Shown here: piece by piece, positions 50,664 to 51,225 of the stretch | How positions within the stretch are numbered: the stretch's first letter is position 1 | Layout of the letters: the number at the start of each line of letters is the position of its first letter | NCBI RefSeq assembly: GCF_004369205.1 | Contig: NZ_QFGA01000001.1 | Coordinates: 930,001-994,000 of the forward strand | From: Pelotomaculum schinkii | Lineage (GTDB): Bacteria > Bacillota > Desulfotomaculia > Desulfotomaculales > Pelotomaculaceae | Length of the DNA: 64,000 bases | Reading direction: 5' to 3' | Notes under the pieces: generated by a model | What the model saw: only the letters and a program-made list of their open reading frames with translations | Told to the model about the DNA's origin: nothing | Database searches by the model: none | Translations under genes and position numbers: made by a program

Positions 50664-50846
50664 ATGTTTTGGTGGATTGCGGCCGCTGTAGTATGGGTAA
50701 TATCTGCTGCTTGAATTTTTTATATCATGGCGGACGTGATCCGCGGTAAAGCCCCGGTCTTAAGCTCTAAATTATGGCCCGGTTATATATTTCATGGTGT
50801 TACTGCTATTTTAGTAATCGTTTTTATCTTTAAGGCTTTAAATTAA
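50664..50846 (+). CDS. Putative small membrane selenoprotein 1 (in-frame UGA)
   Basis: ATG 50664 opens a 60-codon frame ending at TAA 50844-50846 with one TGA at codon 17 (50712-50714). Before it lies MFWWIAAAVVWVISAA, a membrane helix that continues past the UGA as IFYIMADVIRG. A second hydrophobic helix (GVTAILVIVFIFKAL) ends the protein. Two TM segments are predicted with a short loop. A hairpin with loop G at +22 follows the UGA. The next ORF has the same plan. UGA is used as a normal stop elsewhere (for example bioB), so recoding must be local. Decay of a normal gene is the alternative, but two matching cases side by side speak against it. Weak ribosome site (gagggtg); TATAAT at 50624. 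Confidence 0.7.
50730..50744 (+). promoter_or_regulatory. Bacterial SECIS-like hairpin 1
   Basis: GCGGA (50730-50734) pairs with TCCGC (50740-50744) around loop CGTGA; G is the second loop base, at +22 from the UGA. Bacterial SECIS elements have a short stem with a G in the first two loop positions about 16-37 nt after UGA. Confidence 0.6.
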
Positions 50847-50885
50847 TCATTGAAAATAAAATTCAGGCTGCAGGAGGGGCTGAAC

Positions 50886-51077
50886 TTGTTGAGAATAGCT
50901 GGTTACCTACTCCTATTGTTAGGTATTGTTTGAATTGTCACGATCATGGGAGGAGTCTTCTCTCACACTTATTCCAGTATCAACCAACTATGGGGTGCGT
51001 TTGCTTTCCACCTAATTGCCATGATTGCAGGGTTAATGTGCATTGCTAAAAGCATGAACCGTCAGCAAAAAGCTTAA
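50886..51077 (+). CDS. Putative small membrane selenoprotein 2 (in-frame UGA)
   Basis: TTG 50886 (or 50889) follows ggagggg at 50873-50879. The 63-codon frame ends at TAA 51075-51077 and has one TGA at codon 16 (50931-50933). It reads AGYLLLLGIV, UGA, then IVTIMGGVFSH, followed by a second helix (AFAFHLIAMIAGLMCIAKS) with a Cys near 52 and a basic end. Around the UGA it matches the ORF 40 nt upstream (UGA then I-x-x-I-M). A SECIS-like hairpin with loop G at +22 follows. The two are probably co-transcribed and might act as a heteromer; a thiol/selenol partner for the Sec could be this Cys (inference). A terminator-like hairpin follows. Confidence 0.7.
50948..50964 (+). promoter_or_regulatory. 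Bacterial SECIS-like hairpin 2
   Basis: GGGAGGA (50948-50954) pairs with TTCTCTC (50958-50964), two G-U pairs included, around loop GTC whose first base is G at +22 from the UGA. Confidence 0.6.
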
Positions 51078-51113: not shown

Positions 51114-51144
51114 AGTGAGTCAGAGAGGAATCTCTGACTCACTT
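51114..51144 (+). terminator. Terminator after the UGA-containing ORFs
   Basis: AGTGAGTCAGAGA pairs with TCTCTGACTCACT around loop GGAA, 36 nt after the stop of ORF 2. T-rich tail is modest. Confidence 0.75.
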
Positions 51145-51225
51145 CATTAGCTGTCGCAAATATCAGCGCTCAATATAATTTCCTGATAAATTGTTCATTG
51201 ACGGAACAACCCCTTTGTCCCAACC

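Follow-up and report, generated by a model that had tools for sequence, protein, structure and literature searches.

A 64,000-nucleotide stretch of the Pelotomaculum schinkii genome (the window, the whole stretch analyzed here) contains what is very probably a two-gene operon in which two in-frame UGA codons are read as selenocysteine (Sec), giving two paralogous two-helix membrane proteins. The first gene, ORF1, occupies positions 50664 to 50846 of the forward strand (60 codons followed by TAA) and contains a single TGA at codon 17 (50712 to 50714), after which the translation continues with IFYIM. With TGA translated as Sec, its predicted product is a two-helix membrane selenoprotein of 60 residues, MFWWIAAAVVWVISAAUIFYIMADVIRGKAPVLSSKLWPGYIFHGVTAILVIVFIFKALN. 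Its paralogue, ORF2, follows on the same strand after 39 nt (50886 to 51077; 63 codons followed by TAA), starts with TTG at either 50886 or 50889 (TTG TTG), and has its only TGA at codon 16 (50931 to 50933), followed by IVTIM. The 63-residue product is LLRIAGYLLLLLGIVUIVTIMGGVFSHTYSSINQLWGAFAFHLIAMIAGLMCIAKSMNRQQKA. The region of the putative ribosome-binding site of ORF2, GCAGGAGGGG, was located at 50872 to 50880 on the forward strand, and most of the relatives inspected have an AGGAGG-like motif ahead of ORF2.

The first-pass annotation, which was made from the sequence alone, had described both frames (60 and 63 codons, a lone TGA at codon 17 or 16, then I-x-x-I-M) correctly to the base. 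It had also recognized their tandem arrangement, although the 40 nt that it gave for the gap should read 39. It had expected standard annotation to miss both genes, and no ordinary ORF in the ORF list of the window covers either frame. Neither a sigma-70 promoter nor an intrinsic terminator scored above chance at the locus. An inverted repeat, GAGTCAGAGA-GGAA-TCTCTGACTC, is present at 51115 to 51145, approximately 40 nt 3' of ORF2, and has no T run; it is a possible terminator for the pair or for the converging MerR gene, and it was not seen in the near relative L003.

Conservation and distribution of the pair

A search with ORF1 in 60 related genomes retrieved the same gene, including the TGA, from four relatives at 62 to 95% identity. 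Profile searches then covered a class set of 113 genomes and a phylum set of 398. In total, 22 intact copies (10 of ORF1 and 12 of ORF2) were found in 12 genomes of one phylum, TGA-containing homologues being present in 9 genomes besides that of the window for ORF1 and in 11 for ORF2. Ten genomes carry intact copies of both genes (G000, which is that of the window, G002, G003, G004, G016, G065, G109, G111, G123, and G240), and in 10/10 of them ORF1 precedes ORF2 with a gap of 16 to 76 nt; ORF2 was additionally found in G036, close to a contig edge, and in G037. The carriers include Pelotomaculum terephthalicicum JT, two Pelotomaculum metagenome-assembled genomes (MAGs), a Desulfotomaculaceae MAG, and Peptococcaceae BRH_c8a. 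Two carriers, G123 and G240, belong to a different class; they lie outside the 113-genome set and were found in the phylum search. The pair is thus conserved across two classes of anaerobic bacteria in one phylum, and the intact copies span 50 to 97% protein identity. Its occurrence is patchy, and a sister species of the same genus (G001) lacks the pair. Viral contigs and plasmids gave no matches. Weak matches devoid of the TGA in G030, G034, G440, G171, G304, G344, G362, and G412 (E values of 0.001 to 0.007) were either located in longer frames or short, and were judged to be due to chance.

The UGA codons and the coding sequence beyond them

TGA was found at the same site in 22 of the 22 intact copies (10/10 for ORF1 and 12/12 for ORF2), and Cys, Trp, or any other codon in none. 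For the part of ORF1 that is 3' of the TGA, comparison of the window with P. terephthalicicum resulted in a dN of 0.053 and a dS of 0.42. In comparisons with distant relatives, dS was near or at saturation, and dN after the TGA was 0.3 to 0.4. As dN is much below dS, coding constraint persists beyond the UGA. Homologues with Trp or a true stop at the site, or relatives that had lost the downstream frame and the hairpin, had been named at the outset as findings that would speak against Sec; all intact copies have the TGA, and every intact relative retains both frame and hairpin.

TGA also serves as an ordinary stop codon, closing 9 of the 46 long open frames in the window. It terminates ORF1 of G109 as well as ORF2 of G109, G036, and BRH_c8a, and none of these terminal TGAs is followed by an in-register hairpin, so that the pair of G109 holds putative Sec UGAs with a hairpin plus stop UGAs without one. 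Decoding of the UGA as Trp, or by unspecific readthrough, would make a Sec insertion sequence (SECIS) unnecessary, and Trp would be tolerable in a membrane helix; however, this is very improbable given the TGA stops just described, the finding of TGG at the site in no homologue, the encoding of the other Trp residues of the family by TGG, and a hairpin in fixed register, which is a requirement of SelB and not of readthrough.

The genome of the window contains selA, an adjoining selB, selD, and a tRNA-Sec with anticodon TCA, and hence the selA, selB, selC, and selD genes on which decoding as Sec depends; its selD has one in-frame TGA of its own. SelD was found in all carriers, although the G109 match, from an incomplete MAG, was weak, and tRNA-Sec in all carriers except the incomplete MAGs G109 and G111, where nothing scored above the cutoff. 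SelB was detected in 113/113 genomes of the class (109 above the cutoff), so co-occurrence with the Sec machinery does not discriminate. Two full-length selD genes, each with an in-frame TGA, were observed in G036, G065, G123, G207, and G240, and G065 has, besides, two strong tRNA-Sec matches. Judging from the conservation of the site and its surroundings, both UGAs almost certainly specify Sec.

A hairpin in fixed register downstream of each UGA

Numbering the T of the TGA as base 1, bases 19 to 23 are paired with bases 29 to 33 in both families and enclose a loop of bases 24 to 28, in which G25-U26 was found in 22/22 intact copies. The ORF1 hairpin, GCGGA-CGUGA-UCCGC, is located at 50730 to 50744 on the forward strand, has its G-U at loop positions 2 and 3, and is present in 10/10 intact copies. 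The core of the ORF2 hairpin, GGAGG-AGUCU-UCUCU, is located at 50949 to 50963 on the same strand, in the same register as that of ORF1; it is present in 12/12 copies and extended by two additional pairs, U17-A35 and G18-C34. The family patterns are GCGGA-CGUGN-UCCGC for ORF1 (loop CGUUU in one copy) and GGAGG-NGUYU-UCUCC for ORF2. The spacing from the UGA to the loop is 20 nt, and G25 lies 22 nt past the A of the UGA in both hairpins, in agreement with the loop G at exactly +22 in the first-pass annotation.

The limits published for bacterial SECIS (bSECIS) elements are a loop of 3 to 9 nt, a stem of 4 to 16 bp, a G within the first two loop bases, and a spacing of 16 to 37 nt (PMC13188914). 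The loop of 5 nt, the stem of 5 (ORF1) or 7 bp (ORF2), the spacing, and the G, which occupies loop base 2 in all copies and also base 1 in most ORF2 copies, all lie within these limits, in line with the initial assignment to the bacterial SECIS pattern. The pair resembles the bSECIS selenoproteins of the Zhang-Gladyshev model (PMC13188914) in its in-frame UGA, the adjacent downstream stem-loop at an allowed spacing, the G-U at the start of a small apical loop, and the full selABCD set. For bSECIS elements, the minimum free energy should not exceed -7.5 kcal/mol; folds of 48 nt gave -11.0 for ORF1 of the window, with an optimum that differs from the conserved hairpin, and -7.2 for ORF2 of the window, and the whole-stretch fold energies of the relatives ranged from -7.9 to -23.8.

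Over 20 distinct sequences, 100 of 100 pair cells were standard, as compared to 54 to 80% when the partner was slid by 1 to 3 columns. Pairs 20-32 and 21-31 are swapped between the paralogues (C-G/G-C and G-C/A-U). Every pair of the ORF1 hairpin is kept, with changes from G-C to G-U and from A-U to G-U. The changes within families are exclusively of the wobble type (G-U in ORF2 of the window, in UBA3103, and in G123, where it coincides with a change from D to G in the protein). This covariation amounts to few events because most of the double changes represent the single split between ORF1 and ORF2. Independent of covariation is the evidence from synonymous suppression, which is about 3-fold and confined to the hairpin codons: the synonymous rate over codons +6 to +11 was 0.18 in ORF1 and 0.19 in ORF2, whereas it was 0.69 and 0.56, respectively, upstream and 0.55 and 0.64 further downstream.

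A hairpin occurs at this position after 0.7% of the TGAs in the window (15 of 2,140), and synonymous recoding of the same peptides generated one in 4.7% (ORF1) and 15% (ORF2) of the trials. The hairpin in one genome is thus moderate evidence only, and we consider that its conservation among the relatives makes the evidence strong. Folding of both RNAs had been proposed as a check. The stretches of the window were not more stable than shuffled sequences (z scores of -0.14 and +0.49), so that folding energy alone carries no signal, and the global fold of some copies favors another structure; the in-register hairpin is conserved in all intact copies. The unremarkable fold energy would suit a scenario in which the UGAs are real stops, leaving decayed genes or leader peptides of 15 to 16 residues with the downstream frames as remnants, and some copies are indeed decayed (remnants of ORF2 in two genomes and truncated ORF1 in two others). 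This scenario is nevertheless hardly credible: in the 22 intact copies the reading frame stays open beyond the UGA, with dN well under dS, and the C-terminal Phe-His and the hairpin are retained. Decay would not fix an identical TGA and an identical hairpin in members of two classes of one phylum.

Paralogy, predicted fold, and membrane orientation

Profile-profile comparison aligned ORF1 with ORF2 over their full length (59 columns; probability, 96.5%; E value, 9.6e-10), so that the two Sec residues coincide and so do the two Phe-His motifs. This paralogy points to the duplication of an ancestral selenoprotein gene with retention of Sec in both copies. It takes the place of the original argument that two independent nonsense mutations would be improbable, which cannot stand in that form, since paralogues are not independent of each other. 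AlphaFold2, with Cys modeled in place of Sec, predicted a helical hairpin for ORF1 (helices 2-26 and 35-59; pLDDT of 94) and for ORF2 (helices 2-25 and 32-62; pLDDT of 87). Each protein carries Sec in its first helix, and its second helix contains an invariant Phe-His. The distance to the loop end of the helix is 9 residues for Sec17 and His44 of ORF1 and 9 to 10 residues for Sec16 and His42 of ORF2. From these equal distances we infer that Sec and His are at one depth, and they are likely to be side by side within the membrane. No Cys is conserved in the ORF1 or ORF2 proteins.

According to the positive-inside rule, the placement of Lys and Arg is linked to membrane orientation. Every ORF1 sequence has 2 to 4 of these residues in the loop and 1 at the termini, whereas every ORF2 sequence has 2 to 6 at the termini and 0 to 1 in the loop, which is the opposite bias in two tandem paralogues by which dual topology is recognized. 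The reversed pattern predicts opposite orientations, and on this sequence-based ground the two proteins are somewhat more apt to insert in opposite directions than in the same one. Their products probably form a heteromeric pair. The paired membrane system proposed in the first-pass annotation is backed by the paralogy, the constant gene order, and the short gap wherever both genes are present. In being tandem paralogues with a reversed charge bias and a predicted heterodimer, ORF1 and ORF2 are similar to EbrAB and YkkCD of the SMR family and to paired Fluc channels; they differ from these in the lack of a sequence match, in having two helices, and in the Sec-His couple.

Gene surroundings and proposed function

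In the window, the genes on either side of the pair encode a DUF2284 protein and a TipA-like MerR protein and lie on the opposite strand. An FMN reductase gene ends approximately 50 nt upstream of the pair at locus L012, and FAD amine-oxidase-type genes start 114 to 135 nt downstream at L011 and L013. The neighbors are an alpha/beta hydrolase and a MalT-like regulator in G123 and G240 and a DUF4389 gene in G109. A conserved neighborhood was sought among the relatives and none was found; the variation of the neighbors by lineage argues against a fixed functional partner, and the pair looks like a self-contained module.

In the mechanism that we propose, SelB and tRNA-Sec would read each UGA as Sec, aided by the hairpin that lies in frame 20 nt further on. 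This would yield two paralogous two-helix membrane proteins, each with a Sec-His couple inside the bilayer, and their opposite insertion would give a heteromer, obligate and possibly antiparallel, in which two Sec-His sites lie within the membrane. As a conserved Cys is absent and there is thus no selenenylsulfide partner, Sec would most likely be either a ligand of a metal or cofactor or a selenolate redox center, perhaps of the Sec-Sec type; a link between the Sec residues of the partners would be possible only with both selenium atoms at one depth. The absence of a conserved Cys also argues against classic UxxC-type thiol exchange within one chain.

In the redox variant, which would operate in strict anaerobes, electrons would be passed between carriers in the membrane and in solution (quinone, flavoprotein). 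Sec would react with an oxidant within the bilayer, be it a quinone, a lipid, or a thiol, and would give electrons to a flavoprotein or take them from it. Most characterized bacterial selenoproteins are redox enzymes (PMC13188914), the hosts are anaerobic, and the likely redox role named at first is one that we infer from Sec chemistry and from the FMN reductase and FAD amine-oxidase-type genes beside the pair in three relatives. Flavoproteins are common, however, the neighbors depend on the lineage, and both a resolving Cys and a cofactor motif are absent, so this variant is plausible at somewhat less than even odds.

In size and layout, a small two-helix protein whose first helix bears a chalcogen ligand is reminiscent of MerF. 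In an alternative reading, the two Sec-His sites would bind a soft metal ion (Hg, Cu, Ag, or the like) or a metal cofactor and pass it across or within the membrane, as a soft-metal site or transporter comparable to the Cys pairs of the small mercury transporters MerF and MerT. These transporters are likewise small membrane proteins with Cys or Sec in the first helix, and the Sec form of the mercuric transport protein (PF02411) is on the 2026 selenoprotein list (PMC13188914). The lack of a conserved Cys as redox partner and the MerR-type regulator downstream in the window are in line with this alternative. However, Pfam gave no hit for the pair among transporters, MerF and MerT included, and the pair has a lone Sec instead of a vicinal Cys pair and differs in its invariant Phe-His in helix 2 and its two paralogous genes; furthermore, the MerR neighbor is TipA-like (with a drug-sensing domain), is on the other strand, and is not conserved in most relatives. 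We consider a soft-metal or cofactor function somewhat less probable than the redox variant, and chemistry of yet another kind may apply.

Relation to known selenoproteins

Pfam and NCBIfam returned nothing above the cutoff for ORF1 or ORF2, with only chance matches below threshold, and an Rfam scan of the locus gave no match. Sequence searches of the PDB gave no match, and a Foldseek search was not informative, as two-helix hairpins yield no telling fold match. Among the 119 prokaryotic selenoprotein families and subfamilies listed in 2026 there is no such entry, and the Sec motifs tabulated there do not fit (PMC13188914). In most of these families there is either a UxxC/CxxU-type redox motif or a known domain, whereas the pair has a single Sec in a membrane helix and no conserved Cys. 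Adjacent, co-oriented selenoprotein genes are shared with the operons GrdA-GrdB, SAO, and Tso, the small proteins of the last having been compared through NCBIfam models only; in contrast to these, the pair consists of paralogues of approximately 60 residues that stand alone among lineage-specific neighbors. We could not find a description of this selenoprotein family and file it as a new family pair.

Translated searches had been suggested with U and with Cys at the site. The former led to the homologues reported above, and no Cys homologue was found in the 113 class genomes, the 398 phylum genomes, plasmids, or viral contigs, or, across 84,980 species, with an exact 8-residue pattern in which the Sec position was written as Cys, coverage beyond the phylum being by this pattern only. 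A Cys homologue is the usual supporting criterion for a selenoprotein and not a defining feature. According to the authors of deep-Sep, every known selenoprotein appears to possess a Cys homologue, and any that lack one may be lost in their filtering step (PMC12013277). Standard gene calling ends at the UGA and selenoprotein finders discard candidates without Cys homologues, and the pair falls into this gap, which suggests that further small Sec-only proteins go unnoticed; synonymous suppression limited to the hairpin offers a route to such genes. A tentative picture, to which we give roughly one chance in three, is that of a Sec-only family forming an antiparallel heterodimer with two Sec-His redox or metal sites, without a Cys version and with selenium indispensable. 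A membrane-helix Sec that was duplicated and never replaced by Cys across two classes of anaerobes would allow selenium and sulfur chemistry to be tested against each other directly.

Broken copies of the pair

Truncated copies of ORF1 were observed in G037 (L007, contig C8, 9350 to 9418, minus strand) and G111 (L022, contig C124, 3893 to 3973). In both, the TGA is retained but the hairpin and helix 2 are gone, and both are located immediately 5' of a DUF4389-like gene, the one that follows the intact pair in G109; they look like deletion remnants or leader peptides of 15 residues. In G207 (L041, contig C13, 78887 to 78976), a deletion has removed ORF1 and most of ORF2, leaving the ORF2 tail, and G015 has a degraded ORF2 fragment behind an apparent fliN C terminus (L033, contig C11, 46576 to 46665). 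At a further locus of G037 (L030, contig C8, 485 to 700), a C-terminal fragment of ORF1 (VGAIAFHGAT) runs directly into ORF2, so that both pair loci of G037 appear to be broken.
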